Origin: a virus
Virus record (IMG/VR): IMGVR_UViG_3300047552_001322
Location: 1-34,207 of that record
Reading direction: 5' to 3' (one strand)
Length of the DNA: 34,207 bases
The notes under the pieces were generated by a model. The model searched no databases. It worked only from the letters and a program-made list of their open reading frames with translations, and had not been told where the DNA came from. Shown one piece after another: positions 19,871 to 26,491 of the stretch. The first letter of the stretch is position 1; every line of letters starts with the position of its first letter. Made by a program: the position numbers and the translations under genes.

Positions 19871-20898
19871 GTAGCTACAGGATGGAACGGTAGACCATCC
19901 GCAGTTATGTAGGCATAGTTAACACAAATTGTCTTATTGAGGTATTGCTGTGGGTTATCTATAATATACCTTCTTTCATACATTGTGCCAGGTGCAGAGA
20001 CGTCAAATGTCTTTCCACTTGGCATTTTGCATTTTAGCACCGCCCATCCGTCTTTTGACGCCGTGATATTAACTACAAGAAATTCCGCATCCAACCATTC
20101 CTTTATTTTAAGTAACGACTTGCTACGCTTGCCATCTTCATAGGGCATATTACCCCAGCGTATCATAGCACCTTCATAGCCTTCTTTCCTGAATAGCTCA
20201 AAGTAGTCTATTGTATCTTGATTTGTTTTGACAGGGTAAGTAAGTGCTATCTCACAAATCTCTGCCACACGCGGTATATCATGCAGTGCCTCTAACCGCT
20301 CAATAAACGGCCTGTCACTCACCATATCATACGCTACAAACTTAAGCCATTTGGTTGCTTCTTGCTTGCGCTTAGCCCAACTTACAATTGTTTGTAACGT
20401 TTCACCATGACAGTATAACTCACCGTCTATTGTGTCACCAGGCAGTAGCGTAACACTACTAAGTATATGGTCAATAGTAGTGATTTGCTTACCATTTCTA
20501 GAGTAGGCAATAACCTCTTGGCCTGTGTTAGTAATCAGGCAACGATTGCCATCATACTTACGCTGGATGAAAGCATCAGTATAATCAACAGTTACATCAG
20601 CAATCTTTTGCGCTAGCATAGGCTTAACAAAGCCAAGGCGATTCCTTGGTTGCTGCTGCCATGCCTCGTCAATGTCAAGCACATAACCTTTGTCTAGCAT
20701 CCGGTTAATGCGTGATTGCTTTTGTAACTCAATCTGCTCTTGAAGTGATCTGTTAACTTTACCTGCTGGCACATACTCAAACTTGGATTGCGTTGCACCT
20801 TCCACTAAGCCATGCTCAATTTGCAGACCATGCTCTTCGGCAAAGATAGACCATTGCCGCAAAGCGCCTTTGTTATCACGAATGTAAAGTGTGGTCAT
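19855..20898 (-). CDS. ATP-dependent DNA ligase
   Basis: A 347-aa enzyme that seals nicks. An N-terminal WGR-like region (residues about 1-70) precedes the nucleotidyltransferase core. Motif I is RKYDGNR with Lys114 as the AMP-accepting lysine. IDGEL (157-161) is motif III, FVAYDMV (187-193) IIIa, EGAMIRW (242-248) IV, and LLKIKEW (262-268) V. An OB-fold-like C-terminal region follows (EFLVVNITASKDGWAVLKC, then AYITADGLPFHPVATHW). All key residues are present, so it should be active. It begins in an ATGA overlap with the MazG-like gene and is the last gene of the replication operon. Confidence 0.92.
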   Translation of the reverse strand: MTTLYIRDNKGALRQWSIFAEEHGLQIEHGLVEGATQSKFEYVPAGKVNRSLQEQIELQKQSRINRMLDKGYVLDIDEAWQQQPRNRLGFVKPMLAQKIADVTVDYTDAFIQRKYDGNRCLITNTGQEVIAYSRNGKQITTIDHILSSVTLLPGDTIDGELYCHGETLQTIVSWAKRKQEATKWLKFVAYDMVSDRPFIERLEALHDIPRVAEICEIALTYPVKTNQDTIDYFELFRKEGYEGAMIRWGNMPYEDGKRSKSLLKIKEWLDAEFLVVNITASKDGWAVLKCKMPSGKTFDVSAPGTMYERRYIIDNPQQYLNKTICVNYAYITADGLPFHPVATHWAS

Positions 20899-21200
20899 GG
20901 CTTTTCCTTGATAAAAGTACCATTAAACATTTGACCCCTACGATCTTTGATCTCATTATATGCTGCTTCAAGGCACATAACAGGATCTGCTTCAGTTAAC
21001 CAGCAAAGGCTAATAAGGGTAACAAGCACATCACCTATGCCATCTATTATTTCAGGCTTGTTACGGTGATTGATTCCTTTGCCTAGCTCACCTACTTCTT
21101 CTACAAGTTTAATGAACTGTGTCTTACTATCACCTTCGTGTAATATTTTGTTATTAGATGCCCAAGCTAGTACAAGCATTTGAAGCTGTTCAAAAGTCAT
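20895..21200 (-). CDS. MazG-like nucleotide pyrophosphohydrolase
   Basis: A 101-aa all-helical protein with the MazG motif: EEVGEL (Glu34, Glu35, Glu38) followed by EIIDGIGDVLVTL (Glu50, Asp53, Asp57), which binds Mg and hydrolyses (d)NTPs to monophosphates. Phage MazG-like proteins may alter the nucleotide pool or alarmone levels of the host. Both its ends are ATGA overlaps, with DNA polymerase upstream and ligase downstream, so the three are probably translated together. Substrate cannot be read from the sequence. Confidence 0.85.
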   Translation of the reverse strand: MTFEQLQMLVLAWASNNKILHEGDSKTQFIKLVEEVGELGKGINHRNKPEIIDGIGDVLVTLISLCWLTEADPVMCLEAAYNEIKDRRGQMFNGTFIKEKP

Positions 21201-23095
21201 GGCTTTTCTCCTTGGTGGATTTTGTACTCAGAAACTTCGGCCCAGTTAGGGCCAAATTCAGTGTCAAGAATCATCGGTACTTTCAGCGGTATAGCATTCT
21301 CCATAATCTGTTTAAGTTCAATAAAGTCAGGCAGCAAGTCATTATGATACGATAGTGCTACCTCATCATGCACTAAAATATGCGGATAGCCGATACGGTC
21401 AAAGATGCCGGCTTCATATGCGTCAAGCAAACCTTTTTTCATGTAGTCAGCTGCACTGCCTTGAAGCAAGTAGTTAAGTGCTTTGTAAGTGCCTGCACGC
21501 TCAATGTTATGCATACCCCACTTGGCAGCTGCGGCAGCATACGGCAAAGCGCCTTCTTTCTCACCGACTCTAATGAACAGGTTAAAAGTAGTACGCCTAT
21601 TAAGTAAGGTTCTTATCTCACCATACATGAGGGCGTCTTGTGAAATGCTGTCCATAAGGCGGCTAGCCACAGGGAACTTTGTTTCGTACGTTTTAATGAA
21701 CGCACGGACATCTAGGGTAGAGTCAATGGCAGACAGCATGGCTGAAAGCTTTTTGTACTGTGCGCCGTATAGCTTAGCAAAGTTAAGGTTTTTGACAAAC
21801 CTCCTTGGCACTTCACCGCCAAGGAAGTTACCGACAATTTCATGGAAGTCGGCGTCTTCATCTTGATATGCGCTGATAAGCTCTTCAGAACCACTGAAGT
21901 GCGCAAACATGCGATACTCAATCTGAGAGAAGTCCATTTTACACCAGTGTGTATAACCACGCTCAGGTATAAAGATAGACCGGATAATCGGCGCAAGCAC
22001 ATCATCTCTGCTTGGTATCTGCTGCCCATTAGGTTTTGAGCAACTAAACCTGCCAGTTACTGTGCCACCTTCATCAGAACGTAAGGGATGTAATGACGGA
22101 TAGATTTTACCATTGTTACGCTTATCTAAGATAGCATTCTCAATGAAAGTAGTCCGCGCCTTTGATACTTTACGAATGTTGTTAATCAAAGACGCAACAG
22201 GTGTATGCTGCTCGTTTAACCAAGGAGCAGTAAATGAAGGATTCCCCTTGGCTGTACGTGGGTAAGACAACCCGAGCTTATCAAAGAGCAAAGCAATATC
22301 TGCACTAGCATTTACATTGATACTTCTACCTGCTAGCTCGCAAAGTCTATCACGCTGAATTTCTTCGGAGACACGTAACTGATCGGCGGCTTCTTGCGCA
22401 GCTAGCTCGTCAATGCACATACCTCGCATGCGCATCTTAACCAAGAAAGGTGCTAGCTTACACTCCATAACAAAAAGCTCTTCTAAACCTAACTGTTCAA
22501 GAGCTAACTGCTGCAACTGAAGTATCTCTACCGCCATGCTGGCATCTTTACAGGCGTATGGCCCAACTAGGCGCGCAGGGCAACGGTGGATATTGCCCCC
22601 TTGGTCTTTAGGTGTAGGCGCACCGCGATAGTGTTCAGCCGCCCACTTGTACAGATCATCGCTTTGCTTGCCGGCTTTAAGATACTTTTGCCCAAGTGTC
22701 TCAAGTGAATAGCTGCGCGCTGTAGGGTTCAGCAAAGCTTCAGCAAACTGCACGTCATACCAGATACCAGAAGTATCTATCCCTGCGTGCATTAACCAGC
22801 CAATGTCGTACATGACATTAGCCCCTACTTTTACCGGTGTACGGCTTAGCACATCTGTGAGGTACTTAACAGTTGCCGCCCACGGTAAATTGGTCTCAGA
22901 TTCTACTTCGTGCTTAAGTGGAAAGTAGAAAGTTTTACCGTCAAGTGTGGCTAGTGAGACACCTACTAAGTGCCCCCAGTTTTGCGCCCAGCCAGGACCA
23001 AAGTCTATAAGCCCAGGGTCCCATGTTTCGGTATCTACCCCTAAGACTTGCTCATTCAAGTTAGGGAAGTCGCTTGTTTTGGTGATGATAGGCAT
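21197..23095 (-). CDS. Family A DNA polymerase with 3'-5' exonuclease
   Basis: A 632-aa replicative polymerase. The exonuclease domain has LGVDTETWD (Asp21, Glu23), GANVMYDIGW (Asn93, Asp97) and YACKD (Tyr180, Asp184), so proofreading should be intact. The polymerase domain has TGRFS (347-351), motif A KMDFSQIEYR (Asp388), motif B RRFVKNLNFAKLYG with Phe439 at the E. coli 762 position, and motif C LVHDEV (His576, Asp577). There is no N-terminal 5'-nuclease domain. Phe at this position is common in lytic phage polymerases, in contrast to Leu types. No clear Shine-Dalgarno precedes ATG 23095; a structured leader lies upstream. Confidence 0.95.
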   Translation of the reverse strand: MPIITKTSDFPNLNEQVLGVDTETWDPGLIDFGPGWAQNWGHLVGVSLATLDGKTFYFPLKHEVESETNLPWAATVKYLTDVLSRTPVKVGANVMYDIGWLMHAGIDTSGIWYDVQFAEALLNPTARSYSLETLGQKYLKAGKQSDDLYKWAAEHYRGAPTPKDQGGNIHRCPARLVGPYACKDASMAVEILQLQQLALEQLGLEELFVMECKLAPFLVKMRMRGMCIDELAAQEAADQLRVSEEIQRDRLCELAGRSINVNASADIALLFDKLGLSYPRTAKGNPSFTAPWLNEQHTPVASLINNIRKVSKARTTFIENAILDKRNNGKIYPSLHPLRSDEGGTVTGRFSCSKPNGQQIPSRDDVLAPIIRSIFIPERGYTHWCKMDFSQIEYRMFAHFSGSEELISAYQDEDADFHEIVGNFLGGEVPRRFVKNLNFAKLYGAQYKKLSAMLSAIDSTLDVRAFIKTYETKFPVASRLMDSISQDALMYGEIRTLLNRRTTFNLFIRVGEKEGALPYAAAAAKWGMHNIERAGTYKALNYLLQGSAADYMKKGLLDAYEAGIFDRIGYPHILVHDEVALSYHNDLLPDFIELKQIMENAIPLKVPMILDTEFGPNWAEVSEYKIHQGEKP

Positions 23096-23248: not shown

Positions 23249-23473
23249 CTATATTTCCGCTTCATCCTCCTTCGTCTGGTATTTAGATGATGTGCGGATT
23301 ACGTATAACGGACATGTTGGAGAAGTACAGAGCTCTACCTGTCGGCGCCATGTACCAGCAGCCAAGGGGTCATAGATACACTCACAACATTTAGCGTCAA
23401 TGCGGCCACGTAGGCCTGCTCTACCTACCAACTTGGCGATTACTCTTTGCTTATGATCGCTTACTTTATCCAT
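23249..23473 (-). CDS. Small cysteine-rich (zinc-type) phage protein
   Basis: A 74-aa protein with a basic N-terminus (HKQRVIAKLVGRAGLRGR) and a conserved Cys cluster: AKCCECIYDPLAAGTWRRQV, then ELCTSPTCPLYVIR. The Cys-x2-Cys and Cys-x4-Cys pairs look like a zinc site. The 'C-DCIYDP---GTWR-QVE-C----CPL--VR' pattern is a widespread small phage protein of unknown function, normally found in replication blocks. It overlaps the dCMP deaminase gene by 8 bp and is followed by the polymerase leader. A nucleic-acid-binding role is plausible. Confidence 0.75.
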   Translation of the reverse strand: MDKVSDHKQRVIAKLVGRAGLRGRIDAKCCECIYDPLAAGTWRRQVELCTSPTCPLYVIRTSSKYQTKEDEAEI

Positions 23474-23867
23474 CTGTCAGTACCACTATGCCTTTTTCTT
23501 TAAAGATTCGATGAGAGTCATCAGGGAGCCACTTGCTTGAAATGGCGGCAGTTTCATAAACCACCTTGGTTATGCCTGCTTGAGCAATTACAGCAGCGCA
23601 ATGCACACAAGGTAAGAATGGGTGCACGTAAATAGCACAATTCTTTGGCTGCAAGATACAGTTCAAAATAGCATTGACTTCTGCATGCAATACGTTCTGC
23701 TTTTTATCAGATACGAAATCGATACCAGAAGGCGGGCCGTTATAGCCAATGCCTACTATACGATTTTCTGAGTTGACAATTACTGCACCCACTTGGTGGC
23801 TATTGTCTTTTGACCACGAGGCAACCAAGGCAGCTACTTGCAGAAAGCGTTTATCCCACTTGTTCAT
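23466..23867 (-). CDS. dCMP deaminase
   Basis: A 133-aa zinc enzyme converting dCMP to dUMP. Zinc ligands are His61 in HAEVNAI, with Glu63 as the proton shuttle, and Cys87 and Cys90 in LPCVHC. GYNGPPSGID is the usual substrate-loop segment. The gene starts in an ATGA overlap with the thymidylate-synthase-family gene, so the two products act on the same small pool: either dUMP is passed to thymidylate synthesis, or, if the partner uses dCMP, the two enzymes compete for it. Motifs are complete, so activity is likely. Confidence 0.9.
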   Translation of the reverse strand: MNKWDKRFLQVAALVASWSKDNSHQVGAVIVNSENRIVGIGYNGPPSGIDFVSDKKQNVLHAEVNAILNCILQPKNCAIYVHPFLPCVHCAAVIAQAGITKVVYETAAISSKWLPDDSHRIFKEKGIVVLTDG

Positions 23868-24661
23868 ACCGCCATTGCTGCCTGTATAAACGGGCCATGA
23901 GTATAGTCAATAAGCTCAGCATGACAAGGTAAGAAGTTGTCTACTGTAACTTTCTTGTCAAGCACAAGCTTAGGCAGTTCAAACCTTGGTAACATTTTGA
24001 GTTGTTCAGCTTGCTGAAAGTGGTTCATGTAGATGTGCGTATCAGCTAGCATAGCTACAAGTCTATACGGCTTTAACCCACACTGCTGTGCCACAATATG
24101 GGTGAGCAACGCATATAAACAAATGTCATATGGTAAGCCAAGGAAGACATCCACACTACGCATATAGAAGATGCAGGTTAAGTTAGGCCCATTGACTAAG
24201 AATTGAAAGTGGGTATGACAAGGTGGCAAGCACATATCATCTAACTCATCAGGACGCCAAGCAGTTACAAGTATACGCCGTGAGCTAGGATTCTCTTTAA
24301 TTTCTTGAAGAGCCATTTCTAGCTGGTCTACTTGTAGAGGGTCAGCCCGCCATCTACGCCATTGTACACCATAAATTCTTCCAAGGTCTCCATTACGGTG
24401 CCATGCGGTGGCGTTAGCATCCCATATCTTAGTTCCAAGCTGATTAAAATCTTGAACATTAGACAAGCCACGTAGAAACCCAGCTAGTTCTGCCGTAACG
24501 TTTTTAAAGTTAACTTTCTTTACGGTAACAATTGGAAAGCCAAGCTGAAGATTGAATTCAAGCTTTTCACCAAAGAGTGCAAGAGTGTTAACGCCTGTGC
24601 GGTTTGGGCGTAAAAACCCAACGTCAAGGATCTTGTCAACAAGACCTACATATTGCTCCAT
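23864..24661 (-). CDS. Thymidylate-synthase-family enzyme, candidate dCMP (hydroxy)methylase
   Basis: A 265-aa protein of the thymidylate synthase fold. Conserved residues are Arg21 (NRTG), Glu58, Trp80, Tyr97, Cys148 in LPPCHTHFQF (nucleophile), Arg168-Ser-Val-Asp171 and DTHIYMNH (His209, Tyr211). In FLGLPYDI the residue equivalent to E. coli Asn177 is Asp179; spacing from the catalytic Cys (31 residues) is the same as in ThyA. Asn at this position selects dUMP. Asp there is known from T4 dCMP hydroxymethylase and converts thymidylate synthase mutants to dCMP use. The enzyme may therefore methylate or hydroxymethylate dCMP. The C-terminus (QAAMAV) also deviates from the usual APVAI. A normal dTMP-forming role is not excluded. 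Confidence 0.75.
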   Translation of the reverse strand: MEQYVGLVDKILDVGFLRPNRTGVNTLALFGEKLEFNLQLGFPIVTVKKVNFKNVTAELAGFLRGLSNVQDFNQLGTKIWDANATAWHRNGDLGRIYGVQWRRWRADPLQVDQLEMALQEIKENPSSRRILVTAWRPDELDDMCLPPCHTHFQFLVNGPNLTCIFYMRSVDVFLGLPYDICLYALLTHIVAQQCGLKPYRLVAMLADTHIYMNHFQQAEQLKMLPRFELPKLVLDKKVTVDNFLPCHAELIDYTHGPFIQAAMAV

Positions 24662-24930
24662 TACTTATCTCCTTTTGGGCATAAATCTGCCTGCAACTTG
24701 GCGTACCCTTCAATGTCATGCCAAGAGTCAAAGTAATCAGGGTCGCCATTAACTAAGCGTGAAAGCTTATGAAAGATCATGTGAATAGTTTCACGGTGCG
24801 GATAAGACAGATGCCGCCAGTTAGGATGTGCCATAACTACTGCAAGCAACTCTTGCGTCAATTGGGCGTTATCTTTGTACGTACCGTAACGGCCGCCACG
24901 TTCTGTTAGGGTCTGGTCTATGTTACTCAT
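24661..24930 (-). CDS. Conserved phage protein, DUF6378-like
   Basis: An 89-aa protein from ATG 24930 (a TTG three codons upstream is possible). The pattern LTERGGRYGTYKDNAQ, HRETIHMIFHKLSRLVNGDP and DYFDSWHDIEGYAKL matches a common small phage protein ('RG--YG-f---A', 'MI-HKIaRilNGD', 'DSW-DiaGYa'). It is helical and may relate to nucleotide metabolism because it is usually found in such operons, but its biochemistry is unknown to me. It overlaps the helicase stop by 8 bp and abuts the thymidylate-synthase-family gene. Confidence 0.7.
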   Translation of the reverse strand: MSNIDQTLTERGGRYGTYKDNAQLTQELLAVVMAHPNWRHLSYPHRETIHMIFHKLSRLVNGDPDYFDSWHDIEGYAKLQADLCPKGDK

Positions 24931-26491
24931 TGAATGCAACTCTCACAATTTCAGGGTACTTCCCTTGGTTATACACAGTAATAGCTTTAACTGGCTTCAA
25001 TTCGCGTGTTCTTTCTAGTGCCTCCGTTACAGTGTTAGGGGGAGTAGTCCTTGCTCGGTATAGCCACCAAGCATTAGCCGCTAGGGCTGGTCTACCATAG
25101 TGCTCAAGCAGCACATACTGGTTGAATACTAAAAGTCCACATTGATACGATACACGTAAGCAATCTGGTGAACCGGTCTTTTTATGCCGGTAATAATAGA
25201 CATGCTCTACAGTGTATGTGGTGAATTTTTCTTTTGGCTTAGTTAAGATAATGTCTTTTGTAGATGCAGACGTCTTTAATTGCTTGCCACGCTCTGCAAG
25301 TTCAAAAGTGTACTTGCAGCTAGGACAAATTTTTGTGTTGACTGGCAGGATTTCTAAGCACGTTGGACACACTTTGCAAGGCTTTTCGCTTGCTTCTTTT
25401 TTCTGCGAAGGATCTTTAGACTTTACTTGCACATCGTTTATTGGGCCAAGGCGTTCAACATTACGTGCATAGTCTAAGATCAAACAGTTTTCTTTACCAG
25501 GAGCTGGTCTAAGCCCTCTGCCAATCATTTGAACATGTAGGCCAGGTGATTCAGTAGGCCGCAGTAAAACAATCATGTCTACATTCGGCGCGTCAAAGCC
25601 TGTTGTCAATATCTCTACATTGACTAATGCCTGAATCTCCTTGGCTTTAAATTTGTCTATAAGCTCTTGCCGGTTATTTTTCTTTTGGCTGTGTAGCACA
25701 CCTGCTCTAATGCCATATTTACTGAGCTCTTCTGTCACATGCTCTGCATGTGAGATATCAATTGCAAAGATAAGCCAACTATTTCGATGCTGATACTTTG
25801 TGACAAGCTCTTTGACTATGTGTGTTGTGTAGATTGCTTTGTCAAACTTATTGAGCAAGTCTTTCTTAGAAAAATCACCGGCTATCTTTTTAATGCCTGT
25901 AGTATCGTATGTATGCGCAGATGATTTTGCTACCAAAGAGCATAGATAACCTTCTTCAATTAGCTTTACAATGTCTGCAGTATACGCAACTGTTTTAAAG
26001 ATTGGGCCGTCAGTTAAATAACCAGAGCTTAACCGGTATGGTGTAGCGGTAAGCCCAATGACTTTTTTATTAGGCAAAGAGCCAAGGAGTGTTTGATAGC
26101 GTCCTTCGCCTGCAGGTGGTACCATATGCGCTTCATCAATTATTATGATGTCATATTCGGTAAGGTAAGGACTTCTATTGTAGACACTTTGTATGCTTGC
26201 AACACAATGATATTTGAACTCACGGAACCCAAGGCCGGCTGAGTATATCCCAACCAAGGAGGGGTCTATATACTGCTTGAGCTTATCCACATTTTGTAGC
26301 AGTATCTCTTGCACATGTGATAAGATCAGCACACGCTTAGTTGGGTTTGTTGCGCAAATGCCAGCTATTATATGCGACTTGCCAGAACCAGTAGGCAGGT
26401 CTAGCAAACAGTTTTCTGTAGCAGCATTTGCGGCTTCAACTGCTTCAAGTTGGTATTTGCGCAAACTCTGGACAAGCAGCTCGTTGTTCAT
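24923..26491 (-). CDS. SF2 DNA helicase, RadD-like with zinc finger
   Basis: A 522-aa helicase. Motif I is LPTGSGKS (33-39, Lys38), motif II IIDEAH (118-122), motif III GLTATP (146-151), motif V TTGFDAPN (297-303), and motif VI QMIGRGLRP (321-329). After the two RecA-like domains comes a Cys cluster (Cys372, 375, 378, 389, 392: CKVCPTCLE, KICPSCKY), then a C-terminal domain ending near residue 520. This layout fits RadD-type helicases, which remodel branched DNA. The gene overlaps the Cas4-like gene by 47 bp at its start. Confidence 0.88.
   Translation of the reverse strand: MNNELLVQSLRKYQLEAVEAANAATENCLLDLPTGSGKSHIIAGICATNPTKRVLILSHVQEILLQNVDKLKQYIDPSLVGIYSAGLGFREFKYHCVASIQSVYNRSPYLTEYDIIIIDEAHMVPPAGEGRYQTLLGSLPNKKVIGLTATPYRLSSGYLTDGPIFKTVAYTADIVKLIEEGYLCSLVAKSSAHTYDTTGIKKIAGDFSKKDLLNKFDKAIYTTHIVKELVTKYQHRNSWLIFAIDISHAEHVTEELSKYGIRAGVLHSQKKNNRQELIDKFKAKEIQALVNVEILTTGFDAPNVDMIVLLRPTESPGLHVQMIGRGLRPAPGKENCLILDYARNVERLGPINDVQVKSKDPSQKKEASEKPCKVCPTCLEILPVNTKICPSCKYTFELAERGKQLKTSASTKDIILTKPKEKFTTYTVEHVYYYRHKKTGSPDCLRVSYQCGLLVFNQYVLLEHYGRPALAANAWWLYRARTTPPNTVTEALERTRELKPVKAITVYNQGKYPEIVRVAFNE

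Follow-up and report, generated by a model that had tools for sequence, protein, structure and literature searches.

A natural Asn177Asp thymidylate synthase-family enzyme in an uncultured phage: a predicted dCMP C5-methylase within a recurring gene module

The record analysed here, a stretch of 34,207 bp from an uncultured phage (hereafter the window, meaning the whole of it), carries a thymidylate synthase (TS)-family gene in which the residue corresponding to Asn177 of E. coli ThyA is Asp. This raises the question of whether the enzyme acts on dCMP or on dUMP, which product it forms, and whether that product enters the phage DNA. The first-pass annotation had placed the gene at 23864-24661 and proposed that it may make 5-methyl- or 5-hydroxymethyl-dCMP. 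An intact ORF of 265 aa lies there, running on the minus strand from an ATG at 24661 to a stop ending at 23864, and the plus strand across the same coordinates contains many stops. The gene and the neighbors that bear on its function are listed below.

20895..21200, minus strand: MazG-like all-alpha NTP pyrophosphatase, 101 aa, predicted to convert dCTP to dCMP (PF03819, 1.6e-5; phrog_1992, 3.4e-33)
21197..23095, minus strand: family A DNA polymerase with a 3'-5' exonuclease domain (PF00476, 4.8e-56)
23466..23867, minus strand: dCMP deaminase, 133 aa (PF00383, 1.5e-22; phrog_174, 1.2e-41), with HxE and PCxxC zinc motifs and a GYNG allosteric motif
23864..24661, minus strand: Asn177Asp TS-family enzyme, predicted dCMP C5-methylase (PF00303; alignments with ThyA, T4 gp42 and relatives)
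24661..24939, minus strand: DUF6378 protein, 92 aa, all-helical (PF19905, 1.4e-6), which recurs beside Asp-type TS

The protein belongs to the TS superfamily, as it has a full-length PF00303 domain (E=4e-86, 288.9 bits against a cut-off of 24.3) with the catalytic Cys, the Arg pair and the His/Tyr residues. It also matches phrog_160 (1.5e-91), aligns with E. coli ThyA from end to end, and is the only TS in the window; a pattern search for close relatives of the TS as a single protein found none. In alignments with ThyA, T4 gp42 and relatives C148 falls at the catalytic Cys and D179, 31 residues downstream, at ThyA Asn177, so that both the Asp and its spacing were read correctly in the first-pass annotation. 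T4 dCMP hydroxymethylase (gp42) has Asp at the same position, as was also pointed out there. The remaining catalytic residues are kept, again as claimed, and these comprise E58, W80, Y97 (ThyA Y94), R128/R129 (R126/R127), C148 (C146), H149 (H147), R168, S169, D171, H209 and Y211. The departures from ThyA are N177 to D179 and F176 to Y178. The motif FLGLP[FY]DI has a single occurrence in the window and did not turn up in any of 100 shuffles. D179 sits in a genuine intact gene, and an alignment artefact is ruled out.

Asp at the position of ThyA N177 characterizes the dCMP-specific enzymes of the TS family, including those of T4 (gp42) and Xp12 as well as MilA/BcmA (PMC8670742, PMC5175136), and D179 gives the window enzyme this feature. 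Preference for deoxyribose is associated with Ser167 and Arg126, where MilA/BcmA have Ala and Lys (PMC5175136); the corresponding residues of the window enzyme are S169 and R128. According to the account in PMC8670742, which cites Hardy & Nalivaika 1992, Liu & Santi 1992 and Graves et al. 1992, Asn-to-Asp mutants of two TS enzymes act on dCMP as methylases, in agreement with the shift of substrate that had been invoked for this gene. Contigs whose cytosine is modified are enriched for Asp177, and TS is found together with pyrophosphatase (PF01503), dCMP deaminase (PF00383) and PF14437 domains, often specifically in modified contigs (PMC8670742). Counting against modification, the other residue linked to it, at position 147 (PMC8670742), is still His in the window TS, as in ordinary TS. 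The proposed specificity for dCMP is supported by D179, by published experiments (PMC8670742, PMC5175136, PMC6400193) and by a conserved gene neighborhood, and from the published mutants and homologues we infer that dCMP is the likely substrate. The nearby deaminase, pyrophosphatase and DUF6378 genes, which the first-pass annotation did not include, strengthen this reading, but they also introduce an alternative in which the enzyme would serve thymidylate supply and the DNA would be unmodified.

The TS gene is one of a series of replication genes on the minus strand, which mostly abut or overlap. In the order of transcription these encode a Sak4-like protein, SSB, a Cas4-type exonuclease, helicase, DUF6378, TS, dCMP deaminase, DNA polymerase A, the MazG-like pyrophosphatase and an ATP-dependent ligase. 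The TS start is overlapped by the DUF6378 stop, and the TS stop is overlapped by 4 bp by the start of the deaminase gene. The deaminase matches PF14437 as well as PF00383, and its HxE, PCxxC and GYNG motifs are those of dCTP-regulated dCMP deaminases (PMC12088426). The polymerase scores 295 bits against the NCBIfam model DpoZ (aminoadenine polymerase), for which the cut-off is 500, and this match probably reflects general PolA similarity; a pattern search for close relatives of the polymerase as a single protein found none. The record is probably incomplete, since neither a terminase nor a portal was recognized in its 34,207 bp and no end repeat was found, and within it no gene for a dNMP kinase or for any further modification function was recognized. 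In its left-end head genes (scaffold, coat) and in the replication genes common to both, the record is reminiscent of the 40-kb P22-like phage MW202475, but the proteins that the two share are only 27-43% identical.

DUF6378 was modeled poorly from three sequences and well from 38, the AlphaFold2 model from the latter having five helices and a pLDDT of 92; it had no match in the PDB at E<=0.001. For the DUF6378 proteins of the window (24661-24939) and of L251-L379, the 38-sequence alignment has invariant R14, G19, K58, R61, D71, D75, I76, G78 and Y79. The domain was found in 254 phage records by tblastn (E<=0.01) and, where it lies near a TS gene in this sample, that TS is always of the Asp type.

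The arrangement recurs. Twelve Asp-type records of the window's kind were compared, namely the window, L026, L031, L048, L058, L069, L120, L294, L381-L383 and MW202744.1. All 12 have a dCMP deaminase within 2.5 kb of the TS on the same strand, usually adjacent, while MazG or a PRA-PH pyrophosphatase is present in 11 and DUF6378 in 10. The order DUF6378-TS-deaminase of the window is found in L381-L383, and the complete 42.8-kb podovirus genome MW202744.1 has the order TS(Asp)-PolA-MazG-DUF6378-deaminase. An annotated 'bifunctional dihydrofolate reductase-thymidylate synthase' of MW202744.1 (L250:329-1339) was considered as a second TS and rejected, as its sequence is not that of a TS and has no similarity to the window TS. 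Among 197 Asn-type loci, no deaminase was found within 1.5 kb of the TS and no DUF6378 within 3 kb. Profiles placed a pyrophosphatase near the TS in 114 of 128 Asp-type loci against two of the 197 Asn-type loci, but the loci were drawn from pattern searches and one marine clade dominates the Asp set. In addition, a pyrophosphatase that those profiles missed flanks the Asn-type TS of L380, and the pyrophosphatase is therefore not diagnostic alone. With the link between pyrophosphatase and Asp weakened on both counts, the deaminase alone of the module genes looks Asp-specific. An independent-pairs test of Asp against deaminase was consistent in direction, with too few pairs for significance and few independent origins.

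Several other loci of the sample are of interest in their own right. Among the viral contigs L002-L121 there is an extensive clade of Asp-type TS that have GLPYDI, mostly Tyr at position 83 and LSV/LNV tails, and that almost always adjoin a MazG-like gene whose open frame is of about 260 aa; at 106 of 121 Asp loci overall, MazG lies within 1 kb. The phages of this clade probably modify their cytosine and make up a large group that has yet to be studied. The TS frames of L120 (530-1921), G030 and G031 are overlong (464, 471 and 366 aa) and match PF00303 in two pieces, which suggests in-frame insertions such as inteins. In L026, a contig with an Asp-type TS module, the stretch 789-1097 matches PF07659, 'Nucleotide modification associated domain 1', but only weakly and below the cut-off (E=0.0019).

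Asp-type TS genes are common in phages, judging from the matches listed when viral contigs were scanned for the Asp motif, and the change between Asn and Asp has taken place repeatedly, with seven changes of state on the viral TS tree, at least five of them forced by supported branches. The window TS falls among ThyA-like enzymes with other Asp-type proteins, in a supported five-member set that is entirely Asp. In a second tree, built with columns 176-177 masked, it belongs to a supported set of eight rows, seven of them Asp, and its nearest row is the Asn-type TS of L380 (51% identity), whose contig has five replication genes in common with the window. The nearest phage TS is the Asn-type, ThyA-like enzyme of Geobacillus virus E2 (48.5% identity). 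L249 (MW202475.1) and L380 are distant relatives that share the helicase, Cas4 exonuclease, SSB and Sak4 of the window and have an Asn-type TS; no dCMP deaminase was found in either, and together with the window they provide a natural Asn/Asp contrast inside one phage group. It is possible from these sequences that the window TS arose by an Asn-to-Asp change, and possible that it was acquired by gene exchange within the phage group.

The closest known system is that of Xp12 (MT664984), whose DNA has 5-methylcytosine (5mC) for all C (PMC7653180, PMC8543423) and whose infected cells contain a dCMP methyltransferase (PMC8543423). Xp12 was represented here by its relatives AXL1, AAT-1 and Elanor (Bradleyvirinae/Pamexvirus). 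Like the window, these phages have a TS-family enzyme with Asp at 177 (seen in both AXL1 and AAT-1) and nearby genes for a pyrophosphatase and a dCMP deaminase, which in the window are at 20895-21200 and 23466-23867; in AXL1 the genes for pyrophosphatase, TS, deaminase and DHFR are contiguous. The DNA of AXL1 resists most restriction enzymes tested, and its authors assigned the two enzymes to a thymidylate pathway and regarded the mechanism of modification as unknown (PMC9206674). Asp at 177 offers a possible explanation, based on the sequence. The enzyme of the window nevertheless belongs to another lineage of the family, since it is on a ThyA-like branch and not close to the Bradleyvirinae TS, of which that of Elanor forms a long separate branch. 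In the Xp12 relatives residue 147 is Pro, the insert is longer and the C-terminus differs, whereas the window has His147 and a ThyA tail; their pyrophosphatase is of the PRA-PH type (tested in Elanor) rather than MazG-like, and DHFR is present while DUF6378 was not seen beside their TS modules. E. coli ThyA and the TS of Geobacillus phage E2 resemble the window enzyme in overall sequence, tail, pterin contacts and His147, and differ in having Asn177 and F176 in place of D179 and Y178. The laboratory mutants N177D/N229D, which are dCMP methylases, have the same single Asn-to-Asp change, whereas the window enzyme is natural, diverged and set inside a gene module. A further parallel is the Z-cluster of cyanophage S-2L (PurZ-DatZ-MazZ), in which the dNMP substrate of a base-changing enzyme comes from a MazG-like pyrophosphatase (PMC8342488), although the base is a different one and the enzymes are non-homologous except for the MazG-like fold.

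The reading that we hold to be fairly probable is that the gene encodes a dCMP C5-methylase which arose within the ThyA-like branch of phage TS through an Asn-to-Asp change and which, with its module, would put 5mC into the phage DNA. Asp179 would recognize the cytosine ring and protonate N3, C148 would attack C6, methylene-THF would give the one-carbon unit, and a hydride from the bound pterin would complete 5-methyl-dCMP and release dihydrofolate. How the nucleotide pool is handled, how the base is incorporated and whether it protects the DNA from restriction are more speculative. The MazG-like pyrophosphatase may convert dCTP to dCMP, thereby removing ordinary dCTP and feeding the methylase, for which MazZ upstream of PurZ is a precedent (PMC8342488). 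The 5-methyl-dCMP would then be phosphorylated by host kinases, or by phage kinases not seen here, and built into the DNA, for which the family A polymerase would need to accept the modified dNTP. The deaminase could keep dTMP supplied, either from dCMP by way of dUMP and the host TS or straight from 5-methyl-dCMP.

An ordinary TS that acts on dUMP provided by the neighboring deaminase and merely tolerates the Asp would account for the identity of up to 48-51% to Asn-type TS and for the ThyA-like His147, Trp80 and C-terminal tail, but we regard it as unlikely given that the Asn-to-Asp mutants of two TS enzymes cited in PMC8670742 shift to dCMP, that enzymes acting on dUMP almost invariably have Asn, and that in this sample an adjoining deaminase accompanies Asp-type and not Asn-type viral TS. 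Similarly improbable is a dCMP hydroxymethylase of the T4 gp42 kind that leads to 5-hydroxymethylcytosine in DNA. The window enzyme has in common with gp42 the Asp at 177 and the catalytic set (Asp179, Cys148, the Glu, the Arg pair, the Ser, the His and the Tyr), yet hydroxymethylation has been proposed to need Asp/Glu three residues before the catalytic Cys, Ser/Thr two residues before the Tyr and no TS tail (PMC6400193). At the position of T4 Asp145 the window has Leu (L145), at that of T4 Ser94 it has Arg/Ile (R95 two before the Tyr) and no Ser, and its C-terminal FIQAAMAV, ending in the AMAV tail that gp42 lacks, aligns with GIKAPVAI. The residues for hydride transfer in a dCMP methylase (ThyA R21, D169 and the Ala/Val tail) are represented by R21, D171 and A264/V265, and R21, D171 and A264 correspond to the three that hold the pterin in ThyA. 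Furthermore, no glycosyltransferase or carbamoyltransferase was among the window proteins searched in PHROGs. Because the T4 signature is absent and the pterin contacts and tail are present, 5-methyl-dCMP is favored on sequence grounds over 5-hydroxymethyl-dCMP, so that the methyl half of the original proposal is retained and the hydroxymethyl half finds its signature residues missing.

The deaminase would seem to compete with a dCMP methylase, yet DCTD-type deaminases act on 5-methyl-dCMP (PMC12088426) and would yield dTMP from it. Conceivably, then, 5-methyl-dCMP formed by the Asp-type enzyme is turned into dTMP by the deaminase, which would bypass dUMP and leave DNA cytosine wholly or largely normal. 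The 4-bp overlap of the two genes agrees with such a route, as does their pairing throughout the set of 12 Asp-type records like the window. We nonetheless give it a low probability, as 5mC does enter the DNA of Xp12, the parallel that has been studied best, the pyrophosphatase is in keeping with removal of dCTP, and an ordinary TS acting on dUMP would do the same job more simply. A wider proposal gives TS and deaminase a two-step pathway that avoids dUMP, leading from dCMP through 5-methyl-dCMP to dTMP, and gives DUF6378 an unrecognized accessory role in the module, with the pair perhaps supplying both 5mC and T; it is somewhat less doubtful, though still rather unlikely. Palindrome avoidance was considered as a sign of modified DNA and set aside, since in the window it is weak and equal to that of the Asn-type comparator MW202475 and so does not discriminate; across the sample it is weaker in Asp-type than in Asn-type loci (p=3e-9), a comparison in which clades and hosts are confounded.

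The kind of enzyme described here is itself already known; beyond the first-pass annotation, the analysis contributes a module that recurs and a possible route of methylation followed by deamination. On the preferred reading, methylation of dCMP for incorporation into DNA, the cytosine-modifying types of Xp12 and T4 are joined by a ThyA-like branch of enzymes in which Asn177Asp occurs naturally. The four-gene module of Asp-type TS, dCMP deaminase, NTP pyrophosphatase and DUF6378 can flag phages that are likely to have 5mC in their DNA from sequence, and for phages of that sort one would predict resistance to many restriction enzymes together with susceptibility to enzymes of the McrBC type. 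With this module, the old question of whether phages may obtain thymidylate by deamination of 5-methyl-dCMP also becomes testable.
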